A stretch of 64,000 nucleotides of DNA. Source: Methanosarcina vacuolata Z-761. Its GTDB lineage: Archaea; Halobacteriota; Methanosarcinia; Methanosarcinales; Methanosarcinaceae. The stretch lies in contig NZ_CP009520.1 of the NCBI RefSeq assembly GCF_000969905.1, positions 3,968,001 through 4,032,000 of the forward strand, in the 5' to 3' direction. Positions 21,939-30,721 of the stretch are shown here, piece after piece (within the stretch, counting starts at the first letter, position 1; each line of letters begins with the position of its first letter). Position numbers and translations under genes: made by a program. The notes beneath the pieces were generated by a model, which did not search any database, was not told the DNA's origin, and was given only the letters and a program-made list of their open reading frames with translations.

Positions 21939-24900
21939 TTATTTCTTCCGGATGCCCAGGTAAATTCCACCGGCGGCTACCACTACAAAGAGAATTCCGA
22001 TAATATCAGAGCCCGAAAACGAGAGACCACTATTATCAGGTTCTTCGGTAGAATCTTTCTGCATCTCGTACCCTTCAACATAATCAGTATCTGAGGATTT
22101 CTGAACTCCAGGGTCAGGTTCGGAAGTATCTGTACCATATCCTCCGTTCGAATCCTGAGACGTCTGGTTGCTGGATGAACTGGCTTTTACGGTAGCATTT
22201 CCAGTATTATGACTGTGATGACTACCGCCGCTACTGTTCTGGGTCTTTTCTGTTGTCTCCAGAGTTTCAGCTTTGGTTGCAGCTTCTATTTGCTCGGAGT
22301 AGCCCGGAACAGATACTTTTCCACTTACAAACTCATGAAGAAGAGGATTTCCACAGGTGTGGTGACAACACGAAGCACCGTTCTCGGCCACAGATTCCTC
22401 ATAATCCTTTGCAAGGCTTTCGATAATATCCTCTGAAGGTGTCCAGTAATCATGCCTGACTGCTTCAAGCATTCTAGCTGTCATAGACTGATAAGCACTG
22501 GGGTTGTTCTGCTTAAACCATTCTTTCATAGAAGGATCATTTACATAGGTTTCATACACATCTTGCCAGACAGTATCATCCACAAGGTCAGGGTCACTTA
22601 CCTCCCATCCAAATAGGTTGTCCACAAATTCGGACATCATGCTGCCGCCTGAGTATCCGGAGGTCTTCATTCCTTCGATCCATTTGTCGTTGAAATATCT
22701 GGCCCGCAAGTCCTTGCTGAGGTACTCCTGCATTCCTACCATCTGAGCTCCGTCCGAGTTACTTGTGTCCGAAATATACATCTTCGGAGTATTGCCGCTA
22801 AGATACCTCGTTGCCAGGTTCATGCCGCCGAAGTACTGGAAAAGGTCATCGTTATCAAGGGAGTCGTACAGGTTTGAAGAGGACGAATGTACTGACGCTT
22901 CAACGCTTTTCAGGTTGCCTTCAAGGAGCTCTCTGCACTGTATTCCCCAGTAATCTTCTCCATAAGCGTATCCCATTTTGTTCAGGTATACGTTTGCAAT
23001 ATCTTCTTCATTATCCCATGACCCGCTTGCACTGATAGCATCTGAGACCCCTATATCATAAGTACCGTCCATTACTGCAAAGCAGCGCATTGTAGAGAGC
23101 TTTGTTGCAGTCTCATTGTCATACCCTTCAGATATCAGGGAATCATAGAGCGTAAGGGAGCTCTGATTTACGTAGTTTGGATAGTTTACGCCAGGAAGAG
23201 AGCTTGCAAGCTTCACAGCACTGTCTATCAGTTTTATCTTATCCGGGAAAGCATCCCTCATACCTGCGGTAGTATAAACAATATCAATACGCGGCCTTCC
23301 AGGCTTTGAAGTATCATAATTTGGCAATAGCTCTTCTTCAGGGATAGCTTCAACTCCGGTTACATACCCGTACTCATCCCAGACAGGTTTTACCCCAAGC
23401 AGGTAAAGCACTTCGGCTTCCAGAGTTCCGTGGTCTGCAATAAACTCCACTCCGAACCTTGAGAATGAAACTTTTTTGGGATATTCTCCATGTTCGTTAT
23501 AGTAGTCCTCAAGCAACTGAATTGCAAGAGTTTTTCCAACTTCCCAGGTTGCTTCTGAAGGATAGAGCTTTGAATTTATGCTGTAATAATTGCGTCCTGT
23601 AGGCACTGCATCCGGATTCATTATAGGGTCCAGCCCTGAGCCTGGTGGGATGAAGCCTCCGTTCAGGGCTGAAAGAATTCTGTCAATCTCCACATCGCAG
23701 TTAAGAAGCCTGTCTTTATAATCCAGCCCCTGTTCAAGATCAAGTGTAACTGTGCTGTTAGTTTTCCCATAAACTGCAGTCTGCGCCTTAGAAACACTCG
23801 TATTATTGGTTACGACTTCCCAGACAAGTCTGGTAACTTTTGTATCATTCAATGGAATTCCGAGAGGATATGAAGATTCAGGGTAGAAGGCAGCAGTGAT
23901 ATTATCCTCAAAACTTCCTCCAAGCATAGCCCTTACCATTCCTGTAAGTTCATCGCTTTCAGGATCTGTCATATTAGTCGCAGGAACATGGCTGAGAATA
24001 TGCATACCGTATGGGATATTTTCATTTCCTACATCTTCCAGGTATTCATGAAGGACATTTTTAACGAAATCTTCAAACTCCGTTTCGTTGTAATCTTGAA
24101 GAACAGTTACGTTATCTATTCCCAGATCAACACTGAGGTTGAGTGCTATTATCTCATTTACTATGGCCTTCTGGTATCCTGCCCTTGTTTGAGAAGAAAT
24201 CCCGGGGTCGTAATACCCCTCCACATCAGTTGAAAGGTTTAGCAAATCTCCATAAAGCCCGCTGCGTTCAAGGGTTGGAGTCAAATGGTCAATAATTAAG
24301 GCATTACCTCTGTATTCCGCAGTTATTCCTTCTCCCACGTTGGCAACGATATAGGGATAGATATTCGGAATATCCTGCAGCAGAAGAGAAGACCAGTCTG
24401 AAGTCCGGTTCATGCCGTAAGTAGAACCCGGGAGCCATTCGTGCGTACCGTGAGTGCCCATATGAATAAGAGCATCAGGCTGGAATTCATGGTTTAGCCA
24501 GAGATAGAAAGCTATGTACTGATGTGTGGGAGGTACAACATTGCTGTGGTAAAGAGTGTCATTATTTTGTCCTGTTCCTCTGGCAGGCTGAGGCATGAGC
24601 CAGACATTTCCGAAACGCACCGTTGGAATTACAATGTATTTTCCGGTTTCATTCTCATAGATCATAACACTCTTATTTTGAGGCAGATCTTCAGACCAGG
24701 GTTCACCCCATTCGGCTGTTACATTGGCTCTCAGATTTTCCGGAATTTCAGACTCAAACCACTCTTTATAGGTATCCATAGGTATGAGTTGAAGTCCCCA
24801 CTCAGTCCTGTTTTCCACCATCCCATCCAGAACTCCGGGAGCCCAGGAACCAACATTGATGCCCTGGGCCTGAAGCATTTCCATGAGCTTACTACTGTTT

Positions 24901-26336
24901 TCCGGGATTCCGGAGACCCCATAACCGCTTTTATTCATTGCATTCAGGAGTTCAAACATGCTCTGGGTGGAATTGAGATAATTTGCTACGATGTTATCCT
25001 TTCCTGAAGGATAGTTGTAATAGATGACAGCTACTTTCTTGTCTTCGTTTTCCTCTAACTTCAGGTTTGCCCAGTTAATCGACCTGTTTGCCATCCAGTC
25101 AATCTGAGAAGGCAGTGGTTCATAGCTGTTTTCACCTGTTGCGGAATCATAATTATCAATTCCTATTACAATGTACTCGAAAATCCCGTCAATGCTCGGG
25201 AGCAGAGTCTTGTATACAACCTCTTCACTGGGGATACCTCTATTACTATCAGCTATGTCGGTAGAATTAGCAGGGTTTGTAACAACCAATCCCGTGAGGA
25301 CAGGCACATCAAGGTCTTCAAGCTCCTGCACACCTTTATCAGGGTCATCATAATTCAAACGGAAGCTCTTAAGAGAAATTACGCACTGGACAAGAGGTTC
25401 TCCATTTTCGTCAAAGTAAAAATTATGAATATCATTGAAAGTATCAAAACCCGCAATCACGTTGCAGCCTTTTCCTTCCAGATCACGGATAAGAGCATCT
25501 ATGACTTTAAGGTTGTCACCTGTATAGTCGGAAGCATGGAACCATATCCCTATAGTGGGTTTACTCTTGTCGTAAATATGTCGTGATTCATTTGAGTTAG
25601 TTGAATTTGAGTTAGTTGAATTTGAGTTAGTTGAATTTGAGTTAGTTGAATTTGAGTTAGTTGAATTTGAGTTAGTTGAATTTGAGTTAGTTGAGTCAGA
25701 GTACCATTCAAGGTAATCAGTAGTATTTTCAAACCAGTCTGGCTGAGATTCGTTAGTTGAAGAACGAGCATCCGGGTGGTAAATTGCTGCTTCAGGGAAT
25801 TCTATGGGATCTTCATAAACCCAGTCTTTCGTAAGCTCGGGTTTATCTCCATAAGTTTTTGCGAGGTATATAAGGAAGTTCTCAGTATTTTCCTTCAGGA
25901 CTCCTCTGGAACCCATATTGTAGAAGAATTTTTCTTCGGTAGAATTATACGGGGTAGTCCCGGAAAAAATCTGATCATAACTTGAGGTGTTGATGTATGC
26001 TGTATCTATTACGGAAGTAATATCTATGAGTGCAGTCCCGTTTTCGTGAGCGCTTTCAAGATCGTCCCCGATATCTTTGAACTGCGACCAGAGCATATAA
26101 GTAAATATTACATCCTGGTTTTCAAAAGTGACATTGCTAAAATCGGAATATCCTGAAATATATGTTACGTTCATACTTGCATTATACGGATTGGACTGTG
26201 CTGCTGCAGAAAGGGCGCTCCCATCGTAACAGATAAAAGTAATATTTACGTGATTTTCATCAGCCGATACGTTCTGTGCTAGTAATAAAAGAACTACCGC
26301 ACATAAAACCAATAATCTACTTTGTGCCGTACGCAT
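21939..26336 (-). CDS. Surface-anchored CobN-like chelatase (HmuS-like)
   Basis: About 1465 residues: a signal peptide (RLLVLCAVVLLLLAQNVSA), a CobN/BchH-type chelatase body, and a C-terminal membrane anchor (DIIGILFVVVAAGGIYLGI) with a KK end. The family motif HMGTHGTHEWLPG lies near residue 622; further marks are YYSINSKLYPSEATWEVGK and FSRFGVEFIADHGT. A CCHHTCGNP motif near residue 1322 may bind metal. Cytosolic CobN inserts cobalt; an exported, anchored version fits the anaerobic haem dechelatase HmuS or a corrinoid/metal scavenging enzyme. The ATG at 26336 gives the best signal peptide and follows a purine run. An NSTNS repeat lies in the N-terminal third. The DUF2162-ExbB-DUF2149 genes lie 1.4 kb upstream in the same orientation. 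Confidence 0.8.
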   Translation of the reverse strand: MRTAQSRLLVLCAVVLLLLAQNVSADENHVNITFICYDGSALSAAAQSNPYNASMNVTYISGYSDFSNVTFENQDVIFTYMLWSQFKDIGDDLESAHENGTALIDITSVIDTAYINTSSYDQIFSGTTPYNSTEEKFFYNMGSRGVLKENTENFLIYLAKTYGDKPELTKDWVYEDPIEFPEAAIYHPDARSSTNESQPDWFENTTDYLEWYSDSTNSNSTNSNSTNSNSTNSNSTNSNSTNSNSTNSNESRHIYDKSKPTIGIWFHASDYTGDNLKVIDALIRDLEGKGCNVIAGFDTFNDIHNFYFDENGEPLVQCVISLKSFRLNYDDPDKGVQELEDLDVPVLTGLVVTNPANSTDIADSNRGIPSEEVVYKTLLPSIDGIFEYIVIGIDNYDSATGENSYEPLPSQIDWMANRSINWANLKLEENEDKKVAVIYYNYPSGKDNIVANYLNSTQSMFELLNAMNKSGYGVSGIPENSSKLMEMLQAQGINVGSWAPGVLDGMVENRTEWGLQLIPMDTYKEWFESEIPENLRANVTAEWGEPWSEDLPQNKSVMIYENETGKYIVIPTVRFGNVWLMPQPARGTGQNNDTLYHSNVVPPTHQYIAFYLWLNHEFQPDALIHMGTHGTHEWLPGSTYGMNRTSDWSSLLLQDIPNIYPYIVANVGEGITAEYRGNALIIDHLTPTLERSGLYGDLLNLSTDVEGYYDPGISSQTRAGYQKAIVNEIIALNLSVDLGIDNVTVLQDYNETEFEDFVKNVLHEYLEDVGNENIPYGMHILSHVPATNMTDPESDELTGMVRAMLGGSFEDNITAAFYPESSYPLGIPLNDTKVTRLVWEVVTNNTSVSKAQTAVYGKTNSTVTLDLEQGLDYKDRLLNCDVEIDRILSALNGGFIPPGSGLDPIMNPDAVPTGRNYYSINSKLYPSEATWEVGKTLAIQLLEDYYNEHGEYPKKVSFSRFGVEFIADHGTLEAEVLYLLGVKPVWDEYGYVTGVEAIPEEELLPNYDTSKPGRPRIDIVYTTAGMRDAFPDKIKLIDSAVKLASSLPGVNYPNYVNQSSLTLYDSLISEGYDNETATKLSTMRCFAVMDGTYDIGVSDAISASGSWDNEEDIANVYLNKMGYAYGEDYWGIQCRELLEGNLKSVEASVHSSSSNLYDSLDNDDLFQYFGGMNLATRYLSGNTPKMYISDTSNSDGAQMVGMQEYLSKDLRARYFNDKWIEGMKTSGYSGGSMMSEFVDNLFGWEVSDPDLVDDTVWQDVYETYVNDPSMKEWFKQNNPSAYQSMTARMLEAVRHDYWTPSEDIIESLAKDYEESVAENGASCCHHTCGNPLLHEFVSGKVSVPGYSEQIEAATKAETLETTEKTQNSSGGSHHSHNTGNATVKASSSSNQTSQDSNGGYGTDTSEPDPGVQKSSDTDYVEGYEMQKDSTEEPDNSGLSFSGSDIIGILFVVVAAGGIYLGIRKK
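25591..25695. repeat. Seven 15-bp coding repeats (NSTNS) in the chelatase
   Basis: TTTGAGTTAGTTGAA is repeated seven times without a gap (last copy with one change). On the coding strand it encodes repeated Asn-Ser-Thr-Asn-Ser, a flexible linker full of N-glycosylation sequons. Such repeats change copy number readily without breaking the frame. Confidence 0.9.
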
Positions 26337-26360
26337 CTTATCCCCAGAACAATATATCAT

Positions 26361-27146
26361 GAACCCTGAAGCACCCGGTTAGAAAAAGAATCAGGATGCT
26401 TGGCCCACAGAATAATTTTATTATGAATTATTATGAATCTTAGAAATAATACAGAAACAGCTATTAAACATCAAAAATGAACTCGGAAGCTCTTGATTCT
26501 AATATGCAGTCCAATCAAAAACTTCCTAAATCCAATGAGTGGCCACTCTGTATGATAGATTCAACATTCGGAGCATTAGGGAATAAGATACATAAAACAC
26601 AGTTTTTGGCTCATAATTGTTAGCTATTTGGGTAAAAACGGGTTAGATGGAGGTTTTACGTAATATATTATGATTCCTCTCTATTTTGTAGGAGTTGAAG
26701 ATGCTTCTTCAGTTAAGAAGTAACTACACAAAACAGATAATCCTCTACATTAAATGTGATTCCCATGAGAATCGTTTCGTATATTATATGTGCAGGTCAA
26801 ATTTAGAATGTAACTGTAAATTACCCACTCAAAATCGCGAAGAGCCAATACTCTTTCGTCCATAAACCAACGAAATTCTTTTAAAATCATTATGATGTGA
26901 TATATTGATAATTTTGCAATAAATGAAATTGCTTATTTATTTTCAAATCATTGTTTTTATTATAATATGCCATTATAATATAGTGTCATATATTATATTA
27001 TTTTTATACAATGTGCATTTTCATTTTAAATTGTGTTGTTCTCCCTATTTTTTACAAACTGCGCCTTACGCATACGAAATATTTATATACATAGATGTAA
27101 TTTTAGTTATAGACAAATCAGATTTACTTGATTTGTCTTATGAGGC
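26361..27146. other. Intergenic region upstream of the chelatase, no gene seen
   Basis: AT-rich, with a small hairpin CAAATCA...TGATTTG at about 27116-27137 just before the tandem repeats. It should contain the promoter of the chelatase, but I cannot point to it with confidence. No riboswitch was recognised. Confidence 0.35.
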
Positions 27147-27321
27147 GCCATTTTAAACCTCCGTAAATCTGTAGTTTTCCAGGAGCAATTTGCCATTTTA
27201 CCTCCTTAAAGCTGCAGTCTTCCGGGAATAATTTGCTATTTTTAGTCTCTCTAAACTGCAGTCTTCCAGGAGTAATTTGCCATTTTATCTCCTTAAAACT
27301 GCAGTCTTCCGGGAGTAATTT
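27147..27321. repeat. Four non-coding tandem repeats of 43-45 bp
   Basis: Copies at 27147-27191, 27192-27234, 27235-27278 and 27279-27321 share GCCATTTTAnnCTCC and CTGCAGTCTTCCGGGAGTAA followed by TTT. The unit length is not a multiple of three and no frame stays open. They lie between the DUF2149 gene and the chelatase gene. Confidence 0.85.
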
Positions 27322-27335
27322 GTCTCTAAATATCT

Positions 27336-27388
27336 ATTCATTGGTTATCGGTTAAGGAACTTTCTTTCCTGAAAGCTATCGATTTTGC
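27336..27388 (+). pseudogene. Transposase-like fragment, copy of the one at 51614-51666
   Basis: 53 bases match 51614-51666 at 46 positions. Both read in one frame as HW..VKE.S.L.AIDFA, so the conserved piece was coding. The copy at 51.6 kb continues upstream into an IS630-like transposase remnant. The rest of 27389-27776 shows no gene. Confidence 0.5.
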
Positions 27389-27776
27389 TTTTCATTTACG
27401 CCCGGTGGGTTCAAATTCCTCAACAAGTTCCTGTGCACTATAATGCATTGGGTGAAATAGATAGCTGGGGAAGTAAATTCAAACCCTTATTCTGCCAACC
27501 ATAAGTATTTTGCTTTATATTTTATTACTGTAGTATTATTTTTACAGAAGGGGAATGTTTCTGTTCAAATAACAGATGAAAACAATCTGGCAGAAGACCA
27601 TATCCTGTTTTTTATTCTAAAAAAGAAAGTTATTCTGAGGGTGTAAAAAGAATAAAATGAAGTGCTTATTATTCGGCGTCACTTTCCAAATACAAATTTA
27701 ATTTTTTCCGAGATTTTAGGTAAATTACATTGACTCAGTTCATAACAAATAAAATTCACCTATTTTATTGAAATTA

Positions 27777-28256
27777 TTACTGTGAAGTGGATACTTTAAT
27801 TGTACGGGATGATGTAGATGTGCCTGATGATGTAGATGTACCTGACGAAGTGGATGTACCTGACGAAGAAGATGTACCATTCCCATTGTCAGGTACGTAA
27901 ATTACCCTGCCGTCGGCGAGCCTGTAAGCTGTTCCAAGAGCCTCTCCCGTCCCCCCTCCTATGTTATCGGTCATGTTCATGACTTCAATGGGTTTGCCTT
28001 CTTCTTTGATGACAATCTTCATATCCTGAGACCCTGGATTTTTGACAATAGTGAAATCCTCATTGGAACTTAGAAGTTCAGGGAGGTGATATGACATAAC
28101 AAGTGCAACCAACAGAGCTACGGAAAAGACCATTGCAACATCAAAAACATTTGCAACGCTGGTCATAGGACTTTGCTCATCTTCATCTTTTAAAAGTCCT
28201 GTCCGCCTGTATCTTCTGGATTTTCGCATGAGTTCTTCCTCATTATTAAGAGACAA
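27777..28256 (-). CDS. DUF2149 membrane protein (HmuV/ExbD-like partner)
   Basis: A 159-residue protein with a charged N-terminus (RKSRRYRRTGLLKDEDEQSP), one membrane segment (VFDVAMVFSVALLVALVMSY) and an exported domain, the topology of ExbD/TolR. The motif after the membrane segment (NPGSQDMKIVIKEEGK...GEALGTAYRL) fits DUF2149. The C-terminus is a low-complexity GTSTSS repeat. It lies six bases after the ExbB-like gene and is the third gene of the operon. The likely job is to form the proton-driven stator with the ExbB-like protein for the surface chelatase system; this is inferred from family pairing. Confidence 0.75.
   Translation of the reverse strand: MSLNNEEELMRKSRRYRRTGLLKDEDEQSPMTSVANVFDVAMVFSVALLVALVMSYHLPELLSSNEDFTIVKNPGSQDMKIVIKEEGKPIEVMNMTDNIGGGTGEALGTAYRLADGRVIYVPDNGNGTSSSSGTSTSSGTSTSSGTSTSSRTIKVSTSQ
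27808..27879. repeat. Four 18-bp coding repeats (GTSTSS) in the DUF2149 gene
   Basis: Units start at 27808, 27826, 27844 and 27862 and encode a Gly/Ser/Thr-rich C-terminal tail. The frame is kept in every unit. Confidence 0.8.
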
Positions 28257-28262
28257 TTAGCT

Positions 28263-28886
28263 TCAGTTCTTTTCCTCAATCGTATCCAGGATATAATCGA
28301 TATCCGACATATCTTCCCAGTACCATCGCCTTCTGACCTGTGTAAGTACGTAGCCTATCCCGGCCGCAAAAAGCCCCACAACCGTTGTCGCAAAGGCAAT
28401 CATCAGGTTTTGCGCAAGGGTCTCAAGGTCTCCTTTCGAAAGCCCTATCAGAGCAGGGCCTAATGGAATAAGCGTTCCCATAAGGCCAAGCATGGGACCG
28501 ATAGTTGAAGTTATCTTTGTATGTTCAAGGCGTTTTGCCATCTTGATTTCATATTCCTGCGAAAGTCTCTCAATTGCAGGAAAATGTCGCTCTTTCAGGT
28601 ATTTTGCAGCATCTCGTGCAAAAGAAGTGACCATGTAATTTTGTTTGATGTTTTCAAGAGCTCTGGATGCTTCCGAAAAATCCGAATTCTGAAGCTCGCA
28701 CTCAATTTTTTTGCAGTTAGTCTCTAGATTAGTCCAGTCCCTATGCCTTTTCGTATATTCGGAAAGAAATTCTCCTAATTGAATCAAGGAAACAAATACC
28801 AGAATAGTGAGAAGAAACATTACAGGAATTAGCAAAGCCGTTGAGAAGACGTTCATCATATTGGATAATAAATTCATAAGGCTCAA
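28263..28886 (-). CDS. MotA/TolQ/ExbB proton channel family protein
   Basis: A 207-residue protein with three membrane segments: 10-35, then about 130-155 (STIGPMLGLMGTLIPLGPAL) and about 165-190 (NLMIAFATTVVGLFAAGIGY). The TIGPMLGLMGTLIPLG and ATTVVGLFAAGIG motifs are those of ExbB/TolQ. Its ATG overlaps the DUF2162 stop by four bases and the DUF2149 gene follows by six, so the three are one operon. It probably uses the proton or sodium gradient to energise the system with DUF2149. Confidence 0.85.
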   Translation of the reverse strand: MSLMNLLSNMMNVFSTALLIPVMFLLTILVFVSLIQLGEFLSEYTKRHRDWTNLETNCKKIECELQNSDFSEASRALENIKQNYMVTSFARDAAKYLKERHFPAIERLSQEYEIKMAKRLEHTKITSTIGPMLGLMGTLIPLGPALIGLSKGDLETLAQNLMIAFATTVVGLFAAGIGYVLTQVRRRWYWEDMSDIDYILDTIEEKN

Positions 28887-29575
28887 AGATCATGCCTCCT
28901 TATACGTTCCAGGAAAAAACCTGCAAGGACAATGACTCCAAAAGCCATAAGAGGAATAATTCCTGTTTCTCCTCCACCGGTTGAAACAAGGTTCATCTTT
29001 TTTGTTTGTATATACGCAGGGATAAGCAGAGCCCCTAACAGATAGTAAATCCCTATCAGCATCATTGCGCTGCCCATAGTTTCAGGGGTTTTTCCAAACC
29101 GGACCTTTCCAAGCCTGAAAAGAAAAGAAGAAGCCACCACTGCTATAAAAAAAGCAACCCCAACAAGAAGTCCTACTTTTATCCCGGAAAGGTTAAGACT
29201 TTCTGAAAGCAGTATGCAGGAGACTGCAAGAGCTGCCAGGCAGACCGGGCAGGGTATGGATATAGCGAGGAAAGTGTGTCTTGAAACATCTTTTCCTGAA
29301 TTCCACTTTTTCTGGGTGTAAATCCCTATCACTATAAGGAGAAAGGAAACAAGTACATGGATTCCCATGCCCATTGAAGAAAACTTCTCAAAAGATTCCA
29401 GGCTTATATGGTCGGCAACGCCTCCGAATAAAAGGGCCAGAAGTAAATAACTGCCTCCAATTGCAAAAATTTCTTTTGTACTTATGTTTGAAAATCCGCA
29501 TCCTATTCCAGATTTAATTCCAAAGACAAGGATACCTATCAAAATCCCAATCACAGTTAATGCCGTAGAGTCCAT
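28883..29575 (-). CDS. DUF2162 membrane protein (putative transporter)
   Basis: A 230-residue protein with six to seven hydrophobic segments. It starts LTVIGILIGILVFGIKSGIG, has CPVCLAALAVSC in the middle and GGGETGIIPLMAFG near the end, all typical of DUF2162. In bacterial hmu clusters a DUF2162 protein occurs with an ExbB-like and a DUF2149 protein beside the CobN-like HmuS. The Cys pair CPVC in a membrane segment could bind a metal. It is the first gene of this three-gene operon. Confidence 0.8.
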   Translation of the reverse strand: MDSTALTVIGILIGILVFGIKSGIGCGFSNISTKEIFAIGGSYLLLALLFGGVADHISLESFEKFSSMGMGIHVLVSFLLIVIGIYTQKKWNSGKDVSRHTFLAISIPCPVCLAALAVSCILLSESLNLSGIKVGLLVGVAFFIAVVASSFLFRLGKVRFGKTPETMGSAMMLIGIYYLLGALLIPAYIQTKKMNLVSTGGGETGIIPLMAFGVIVLAGFFLERIRRHDL

Positions 29576-30205
29576 AATACCTTCTGAGCATCTATAGTAA
29601 AATTAAATAAAAACTGGTTTTTGGGTAATATTCGTTATCTTTTTGGATAACAAGGGCTCATTGAGTGTATATTTTATACTAAAAGTTTGTCTACACCCTT
29701 TTTTCTGCCGGAGAGATAGAAATAATTAAACAAGTTAAAATCAGAACATGTGTAGAAGTTAAGATAATAAGATAGTAAGAGAGTACAAGAATAAAATAGT
29801 TAAATAGTAAAGTTACTATGAATCCCTTATTAGACAGGTCCCTGTAACCAAAATCGAGATTATTTGACTTAGTTATGACACCTGAATCGTAACATAATTA
29901 CATAATACTATAATAAAATAGTAAAATAGTTTCTTTTTTTAAAACGGTATCAATTAACGTTAGTCATACATTAGAATTAAAACTTAACAAATATTATGTG
30001 AAAATTTACTTTGCTTGCCAGGCAGTAATATAGAAAAAAGAAAAGAAAAATCCGTAATTAAAGTAAATTTGCTAAAATTAAATATAAAAAAGACAATGAA
30101 AAGATCTAATAGTTTACTTTACTTGTTCTAATAAAAGCAATAATTATAAGTATTTGAGATAAAATAGAGTTCATCATGGTAGTAAATGTTATGAGGAGTT
30201 CTGGA
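29576..30205. other. Divergent promoter region of the hmu-like operon and the ArsR gene
   Basis: About 600 AT-rich bases between divergent genes. Several A/T-rich near-repeats occur (AAATAGTTAAATAGTAAAGT at 29796 and TAAAATAGTAAAATAG near 29913). GAGGAG at 30193-30198 is the SD of the ArsR gene. An operator is likely here but I cannot define it. Confidence 0.4.
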
Positions 30206-30721
30206 ATGAACGGCGGTAGAGAAAACCTTTTCAAAGCTATTTCTAGCGATACACGCCTCTCAATTCTCGAACACCTGAGTGAAGGAGATATGCATATATC
30301 CGGTCTGGCAAGAGAAATAGGGATTTCTGTGCCTGTGGCTGCCAAACATGTAAAAATATTAGAAAAAGCTGATCTTATAGAACGAAAAAAGTTCGGAAAT
30401 ACTCATATGATAGGCATCAAACTGAACAACATTTATTCTTTCCTGGACCACTTTGCAGAAAACAGGAGACTGGAGGTTGAACAGGGAACGACTCTGCTTG
30501 ATGCCCTAAAAAGCGTGGCTGCCGTGGAAGTTAAGAAAATGGGGAACAGAGTCAAGGTCATCTCTACGGATGGGGAAGAGGGATTTTATATATATGAGGT
30601 GGATGGCAAATTTTCGGATAAGACTGTAGACGAATATGAGTTTTACGACGATGCTGTAGTCGAGTGGAAAAAGTTAGTGCCCGTAACGAAAAAAAGATTA
30701 CTGGTAAGTATCAGAAGGTAA
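30206..30721 (+). CDS. ArsR-type regulator fused to a DUF4430-like domain
   Basis: Residues 1-85 are an ArsR-type winged helix (ENLFKAISSDTRLSILEHLS, HISGLAREIGISVPVAAKHV). The C-terminal 75 residues (GTTLLDALKSVAAVEVKK...GFYIYEVDGKFSDKTVDEYE, DDAVVEWKKLVPV) resemble DUF4430, the fold of the transcobalamin C-terminal domain. A regulator with a cobalamin-binding-like domain, divergent from an hmu-like operon, could sense a corrinoid or tetrapyrrole; this is inference. ATG 30206 is chosen because GAGGAG lies seven bases upstream; an in-frame ATG at 30176 has no SD. Confidence 0.65.
   Translation: MNGGRENLFKAISSDTRLSILEHLSEGDMHISGLAREIGISVPVAAKHVKILEKADLIERKKFGNTHMIGIKLNNIYSFLDHFAENRRLEVEQGTTLLDALKSVAAVEVKKMGNRVKVISTDGEEGFYIYEVDGKFSDKTVDEYEFYDDAVVEWKKLVPVTKKRLLVSIRR

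Follow-up and report, generated by a model that had tools for sequence, protein, structure and literature searches.

The window analysed here, 64,000 nucleotides of the 4.56-Mb genome of Methanosarcina vacuolata Z-761 (NZ_CP009520.1, positions 3,968,001 to 4,032,000), encodes on its minus strand, in order of transcription, a DUF2162 protein (T), an ExbB/MotA/TolQ-like protein (U), a DUF2149 protein (V) and, 1.4 kb further on, a CobN-like protein (S). An earlier note on this DNA had described a secreted, C-terminally anchored CobN-like gene with three coupled membrane genes upstream on the same strand, which the coordinates and Pfam scores confirm (Table 1); T and U share 4 bp, and a gap of 6 bp separates U from V. 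The best explanation we can offer is that S is a surface relative of the chelatases, powered by an ExbB-like/DUF2149 motor, which takes corrinoids or their cobalt under a switch shared with its partner genes. We regard this as a serious candidate whose chance is a little under even; what is observed is the gene set, the kinship of S, its motifs and the shared operator.

Table 1. Features of the T-U-V-S locus, with positions in the window.
Feature	Position	Strand	Remarks
T, DUF2162 'predicted transporter', 230 aa	28883..29575	-	PF09930, 233.7 bits (cut-off 34.4)
U, ExbB/MotA/TolQ-like proton-channel subunit, 207 aa	28263..28886	-	PF01618 (MotA_ExbB), 43.6 bits (cut-off 22.9)
V, DUF2149, proposed ExbD analogue	27777..28256	-	PF09919, 115.1 bits (cut-off 27.1)
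S, CobN-like protein, apparently secreted with a C-terminal anchor, 1473 aa	21939..26360	-	PF02514 (CobN-Mg_chel), 1021.8 bits (cut-off 24.5)
R, divergent regulator, ArsR-type winged helix and C-terminal DUF4430-like domain	30176..30721	+	
Operator-like repeat GTTANC-N6-GNTAAC-N4-RTTANCC before T	29623..29651	-	0 mismatches; conserved; just upstream of a TATA-like box
Operator copy before S	26608..26636	-	2 mismatches; other genomes keep it upstream of S/S2
S, N-terminal hydrophobic (signal/anchor) segment, aa 16-34	26259..26315	-	simple hydropathy
S, HMGTHG motif, aa 633-638	24447..24464	-	second His corresponds to HmuS His-538
S, DNDDLFQYFGG	22824..22856	-	slot of the HmuS His-1209/Glu-1212 motif; here Asp/Gln as in CobN
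S, CCHHTC in the C-terminal extension	22353..22370	-	common to HmuS (C-x4-C-x-N) and other motor-linked proteins
S, VEGYEM juxtamembrane motif	22062..22079	-	proposed V docking site (D-box-like)
S, C-terminal membrane helix, aa 1452-1470	21951..22007	-	simple hydropathy

Distribution of the gene set

DUF2149 occurs in 70 of the 119 genomes of the order, and 80 of the 259 contig stretches encoding a relative were surveyed. S was found within 4 kb downstream in 43 of the 61 loci that have 4.5 kb of downstream sequence, while among the 73 loci with room upstream U was present in 72 and T in 63; a divergent regulator was seen in 16 of the 62 loci with 3 kb upstream. Across the 56 loci with enough flanking sequence at either end, T and S occurred together in 39, T without S in 8 and neither in 9, and a downstream S without T was never observed, so that the association described in the earlier note is not a product of chance. 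By this 39:0 linkage T goes with the chelatase, whereas U-V is found with other surface proteins as well. Three loci scored as T without a downstream S (L096, L151 and L153) have S elsewhere in the locus, and a planctomycete metagenome-assembled genome (L147) carries S upstream of U-V, with no T. That U-V serves another client and adjoins S incidentally would agree with the U-V pairs that lack S and lie beside other surface proteins, such as the CARDB/beta-propeller proteins of ANME-type (anaerobic methanotroph-type) genomes, yet the T-S linkage, the shared operator and the shared tail motif described below make this account very improbable.

In one ANME-type locus (L067:11426-15918), the neighbour of T-U-V is a protein in which Pfam-type CbiX matches occur three times together with an FmdE domain, so that a relative of class II chelatases takes the place of the CobN-like protein. 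Six Methanolobus-type loci (L095, L125, L126, L127, L131 and L046) have U-V without T in a conserved neighbourhood with a surface protein of about 870 aa and carbohydrate-like genes, and one Methanosarcina genome (G125) holds twelve CobN-family matches, several of them in tandem.

Many Methanosarcinaceae have the genes in the same order, T-U-V-S, and so does Trichlorobacter lovleyi, where a TonB-dependent transporter (TBDT) gene precedes the four genes, a separate exbB-exbD-tonB-TBDT set follows, and cobT, bzaF and cobalt energy-coupling factor (ECF) transporter genes lie around. This plasmid cluster (PMC3403914) shares with the archaeal one the gene order and, as detailed below, the DDxxQ site, the Cys extension and a V-E-G-F-E-M tail, but it belongs to a Gram-negative bacterium, includes TonB receptors and, as a second motor, one of the canonical Ton type, and sits within B12 genes; passages of the original report propose a corrinoid- or siderophore-related role. 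Our DUF2149 search of a plasmid collection gave 11 records, ten of which were examined, Pseudoalteromonas piscicida being left out; in two of the ten (L162 and L163) no module genes are annotated, though L163 has S, U and V by our own profiles.

Sets of the HmuY/TBDT/S/T-slot/U/V type are found in Bacteroides, Prevotella and Aureibacter, and the hmu S-U-V modules of Bacteroidota are iron-regulated according to excerpts of PMC10434189. In Pseudomonas aeruginosa, an operon of TBDT, CobN, 'ExbD' and PA1925 genes is reported as Zur-regulated, with 45- to 147-fold induction (PMC4542158, PMC9431628), and PA1925 is called a DUF2149 protein in PMC9431628. By the annotation of those papers alone, PA1922-PA1925 resembles the archaeal set in joining CobN-like, ExbB/ExbD-like and DUF2149 genes in one operon, and differs from it in its zinc regulation, its TonB receptor and the fact that no DUF2162 is named. 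The theme across bacterial S-U-V modules is metal acquisition, the metal differing. As a separate observation, S-U-V of Runella (L157) lies within hyp (hydrogenase maturation) genes and that of Azospirillum (L159) near nikR, which hints at nickel; the Azospirillum S carries DHxxE, the site seen in porphyrin enzymes.

Kinship and active site of S

PF02514 spans nearly the full length of S, as in the six-domain CobN/ChlH type of protein. Its best PDB match is HmuS (9d26, 475.8 bits), followed by CobN (7c6o, 418.8 bits), and its scores fall under the NCBI cut-offs for CobN (NF004645, 1184.9 versus 1619; TIGR02257, 574.2 versus 822). Unlike the cytosolic CobN of CobNST, S has hydrophobic segments at both ends; it is apparently exported, with an anchor at the C terminus. 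It carries 43 N-glycosylation sequons, and a perfect 15-bp repeat in seven copies (window 25590-25694) encodes a sequon-rich SNSTN stretch within it. Some S proteins bear large N-terminal additions (L105:10479-17933 and L218:8088-13781), consisting of PKD and carboxypeptidase-regulatory domains or of a PQQ-type beta-propeller.

A tree built by a quick method from 1291 columns of 40 selected proteins split the motor-linked proteins, bacterial and archaeal alike and with HmuS among them, from BchH, aerobic and haloarchaeal CobN and methanogen cytosolic CobN (Shimodaira-Hasegawa-like approximate likelihood-ratio test, SH-aLRT, 99). S grouped with the motor-linked proteins, the cytosolic CobN of its own genome grouped with the biosynthetic ones, and HmuS formed a separate long branch. 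The clustering of S with cytosolic CobN, which the earlier note had named as a refuting outcome, was thus not obtained, although in the approximately unbiased (AU) test the topology joining archaeal S to the biosynthetic group was not rejected (p 0.09), so that the split alone is not decisive. A discrete character agrees with it, namely a C-terminal extension that carries a Cys pair and, after it, N or D/H. Motor-linked proteins share this extension (CCHHTCGN in the window's S, CCDHTCNN in Trichlorobacter, CGHTTCDH in Runella, C-x4-C-D-N in HmuS), and biosynthetic proteins lack it; in Pseudoalteromonas and Diaphorobacter just its later part is left. The tree favours a place for S in the motor-linked group rather than with biosynthetic CobN, within the limit set by the AU test. 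Aerobic CobN (CobNST) and ChlH/BchH share with S the fold and HxGxHG, and CobN also DDxxQ, while they differ in being cytosolic and in lacking the tail helix, the Cys extension and the motor genes.

The catalytic His-538 of HmuS, part of the motif HFG(T/A)HG there and of HMGTHG in S, is retained in S and in S2, a secreted paralog encoded elsewhere in the genome. At the second site, Asp and Gln (DDxxQ) are found in S, S2, the Trichlorobacter protein and the actinobacterial and Deinococcus CobN, whereas HmuS, BchH and the nikR-linked Azospirillum protein have His with Glu or Asp (DHxxE/D). Asp with Ala, Gly or Ser occurs in Halorubrum, Runella and some archaeal proteins, and the Nitratireductor CobN departs from the Asp/His pattern (Ala). 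Among the few enzymes of known substrate, which form a small sample, those acting on porphyrins have His and those acting on corrins have Asp. The HmuS motif LSLDHxxEFMGG with His-1209 and Glu-1212 does not recur in S, and in the 40-protein alignment, the head region of which is poorly aligned, the Met-79/His-254 haem site is replaced by Leu and Ser. S was rejected as HmuS proper, since the second axial His/Glu and Met-79/His-254 are both absent.

The archaeal set has in common with Bacteroidota hmuYRSTUV (PMC12583661, PMC10434189) an anchored CobN-like S, an ExbB-like U, a DUF2149 V, a membrane protein in the T slot, His-538 and the C-x4-C-x-N extension. It differs in having neither HmuY/HmuR nor an outer membrane, in its order T-U-V-S, in its regulator and in its T, which is DUF2162 and not detectably HmuT, besides the HmuS residues just named. 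The 'hmuSTUV-like' label given earlier to this locus therefore stands for S, U and V, which belong to the families of HmuS, HmuU and HmuV, and does not extend to S as a true HmuS or to T as a match of HmuT.

These comparisons also bear on whether S is a surface haem dechelatase that takes Fe(II) from external haem like HmuS, assisted by T-U-V, with iron entering via FeoB. HmuS being the best PDB match and the retained His-538 would fit such a role, as would proteomics of Methanosarcina barkeri, in which two CobN-like 'BtuS' proteins change with iron and sulfur source, being up together on FeS2 and Fe(II)/Cys compared with Fe(II)/sulfide, and are read in excerpts of PMC10846266 as haem-iron salvage. 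The same work reports several proteins of porphyrin and cobalamin synthesis as lower with sulfide, too. Nevertheless, Asp/Gln replaces His-1209/Glu-1212 and Met-79/His-254 is missing, leaving an active site of the CobN type, relatives lie in B12 or nickel contexts, and most Methanosarcinales are reported to synthesise their own haem (passages of PMC8351635), so that we consider haem dechelation unlikely. Of the two substrates considered in the earlier note, haem has become the less likely choice, and corrinoids would fit better in view of the DDxxQ site and the B12 contexts.

The membrane partners and the tail of S

By simple hydropathy, T has about seven hydrophobic segments, U three and V one. 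The GxGCG and PCPxC motifs of T are invariant among the 22 sequences compared. A structure model of T (predicted local distance difference test, pLDDT, 76.5) gave no PDB match at E 0.001 in a fold search, a search of viral contigs found no DUF2162, and no mention of DUF2162 was found in the open literature searched. Homology of T to Bacteroidota HmuT was not supported (no DUF2162 match, no profile match), nor was homology to the weakly NicO-like protein in the T slot of Runella (no match). U matched PDB ExbB chains at E 0.007-0.009. The single membrane segment of V holds an invariant Asp (NxFDxA, 18 of 18 sequences), the one feature that suggests V as an ExbD analogue; an 18-bp repeat of 3.6 copies (window 27814-27878) lies at the C-terminal end of V. 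DUF2149 is listed in PMC9425974 as a conserved Methanosarcinales family linked to TolQ, and the other four literature matches for it concern Porphyromonas/Bacteroidota or Pseudomonas, as far as titles and excerpts go.

For the tail of S, 89 complete S-type open reading frames (ORFs) were reduced to 75 without near-duplicates, 66 of which have a C-terminal helix by the rule used; the nine helix-less ones are cytosolic or biosynthetic proteins, one broken ORF and four bacterial S proteins that fail the rule. The motif [VIA]-x-G-x-x-[ML] stands 21-27 residues before the helix in 61 of these 66 non-redundant S proteins, against 2.46 in shuffled tails, and the five without it are three HmuS proteins, that of Methanimicrococcus and one ANME-type protein. 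In its own genome the tail profile finds only S and S2 (next match E 0.6); run against ten other genomes, it picks up mainly proteins of CobN length, together with two surface proteins of 333-340 aa. VEGYPM, AKGYPM and VKGYQM end a single family of non-CobN CARDB/beta-propeller proteins encoded directly before U (L056, L061, L063 and L072), the family being assigned by Pfam on two of the four. The two secreted proteins of 333-340 aa (L216:5437-6459 and L217:6281-7282, from two genomes of the same family) have the tails VNGYIL and VDGYIL, no CobN domain and no U-V nearby.

According to excerpts of PMC10907165, the D-box of TonB follows closely on the membrane anchor and attaches to the ExbD dimer through strand addition. 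The tail of S is reminiscent of it, both being short motifs near the membrane helix of a motor's client, with the differences that the helix of S is C-terminal, that the sequences are unlike and that binding by the S tail is putative. If V grips S via this tail, the motor would act on S itself and an outer membrane would be unneeded, which may answer the puzzle, raised in the earlier note, of ExbB-like energy coupling in a single-membrane cell. From its proposal of a proton-driven surface complex, the surface location agrees with the hydrophobic segments of S, and the motor is plausible from the gene families present.

More tentatively, and with a chance clearly short of even, we propose an archaeal, single-membrane ExbBD-type motor that pulls directly on surface proteins with a D-box-like C-terminal tail, its Methanosarcina client being the chelatase as a corrinoid or cobalt stripper. 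If true, TonB-type force transduction would represent a single branch of a broader system that needs no outer membrane, ExbB-like proteins would gain a job in cells lacking that membrane, and the tail motif would supply a concrete contact, which may hold for the bacterial zinc, nickel and haem modules too. Such a system is undescribed among the literature matches listed for archaeal ExbB/TolQ-type motors and CobN/DUF2162 sets, subscription papers and preprints lying outside the search.

Shared operator and proposed function

R adjoins T in L049, in L057 and, without exception, in the six loci of the first set that come from the same genus (L034-L039). Its homologs have the ArsR-type domain in 18 of 18 cases and the DUF4430-like domain in 10 of 18 at E 0.01, above the cut-off in L057. 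DUF4430 also forms the C terminus of transcobalamins (excerpts of PMC4350170). A PF14478 search of the window's own genome gave no match at E 0.001.

The operator pattern, allowing up to two mismatches, has five matches genome-wide, three of which precede T (0 mismatches), S2 (1) and S (2). A reversed control pattern has eight matches, so that only the positions, not the number, are telling. At Methanosarcina loci the operator lies within 550 bp of 14 of 32 distinct S starts, where random stretches of these loci would give 0.25, while S genes directly after V mostly have no operator. This placement makes T-U-V, S and S2 look like one regulon, and we infer that R binds the operator and controls all three. 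Because of the 1.4-kb gap and its own operator, S may not be co-transcribed with T-U-V in this genome. In Methanosarcina mazei, excerpts of PMC11456600 report cobN as down under nitrogen limitation, the paralog not being specified.

Two further CobN-family genes are present in the genome. The cytosolic-looking one (L166) adjoins a CbiQ-like gene and genes of ATP-binding cassette (ABC) type, the latter label being read off translations; S2 (L167) is placed between mtaCB-like genes, likewise so labelled, and cbiM/cbiQ (Pfam). Six loci have S2 away from T-U-V, and S2 adjoins cbiM in two of them, this genome and L236. The DDxxQ site shared with CobN, the Trichlorobacter B12 cluster and these two loci point to a corrinoid, or cobalt from one, as the most likely Methanosarcina substrate. 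A broader account, in which S strips metal from other complexes (Fe, Ni or Zn chelates), the metal varying by lineage and no corrinoid specificity being involved, would suit the Zur regulon of Pseudomonas, the nikR and hyp neighbours and the iron regulation in Bacteroidota; the active site, which is of CobN type, and the B12 genes around the most similar gene order speak for corrinoids instead, and we find this account quite improbable.

For the preferred corrinoid reading, we infer the substrate, activity and reaction direction of S, the coupling to the motor and the role of T as follows. S would be a cell-surface member of a wide CobN-like family, HmuS included, that works with an ExbB-like/DUF2149 proton motor; the chelatase cavity of S would trap an external tetrapyrrole. 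The motor, with U around V by analogy with ExbBD, would grip S through the V-x-G-x-x-M segment beside the C-terminal helix and use the ion gradient to open, close or reset it, whereupon metal or ligand would be released. As a membrane protein specific to the chelatase, in which Cys and His are conserved, T might pass on the released metal, the ligand or electrons, and R would govern T-U-V, S and S2 through the one shared operator.

Several points weigh against this reading. Removing cobalt from corrinoids is chemically hard. Homology of V to ExbD was looked for by sequence and not detected, and the tail motif is missing in some U-V neighbours, such as the 865-886 aa surface protein of the Methanolobus-type loci without T. 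S2 lacks an adjacent cbiM in the other four loci (L232, L233, L234 and L237). DUF4430 in the window's R scores 20.5 bits, under the Pfam cut-off of 23.8; a fold search places only the N-terminal half of R, which matches ArsR/SmtB proteins, and DUF4430 is non-specific to B12 proteins and no proof of corrinoid sensing. The AU result given above counts on the same side.

In addition, the catalytic HxGxHG motif is lost in 8 of 94 S-type proteins, biosynthetic ones included among the 94, so that some family members may bind without chelating. The motif-less proteins linked to T-U-V (among them Methanoculleus L134/L137, Methanocalculus L143, Methanofollis L153 and one paralog, the third S, of L133) look as if they were pseudo-enzymes kept for binding. 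S might by extension be a non-enzymatic receptor, which just binds surface corrinoids or other tetrapyrroles while T-U-V drives import of the whole ligand. Since the motif is retained in 86 of 94, the window's S and S2 included, and some genomes with a degenerate S hold a second CobN-family protein, we judge a mere receptor rather unlikely, and retain the surface chelatase relative as our preferred reading.

The HmuS paper (PMC12583661) describes, in the parts cited here, the role of many archaeal HmuS/CobN homologs as unclear, in species without complete hmu operons, and M. barkeri is said in passages of PMC10846266 to lack the entire operon. That archaeal S is accompanied by inner-membrane partners, a regulator and an operator makes its function testable in a genetically tractable genus.

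T-U-V-S is flanked on one side by FmdE, TrmO and methyltransferase genes and on the other by R, with no HmuY/HmuR. An Rfam scan of the 18-32 kb region of the window found no riboswitch and no other RNA family, and sigma-70 and terminator scans gave no clear surplus over shuffled sequence. The V-S interval contains a 43-bp repeat in four copies (window 27147-27322).

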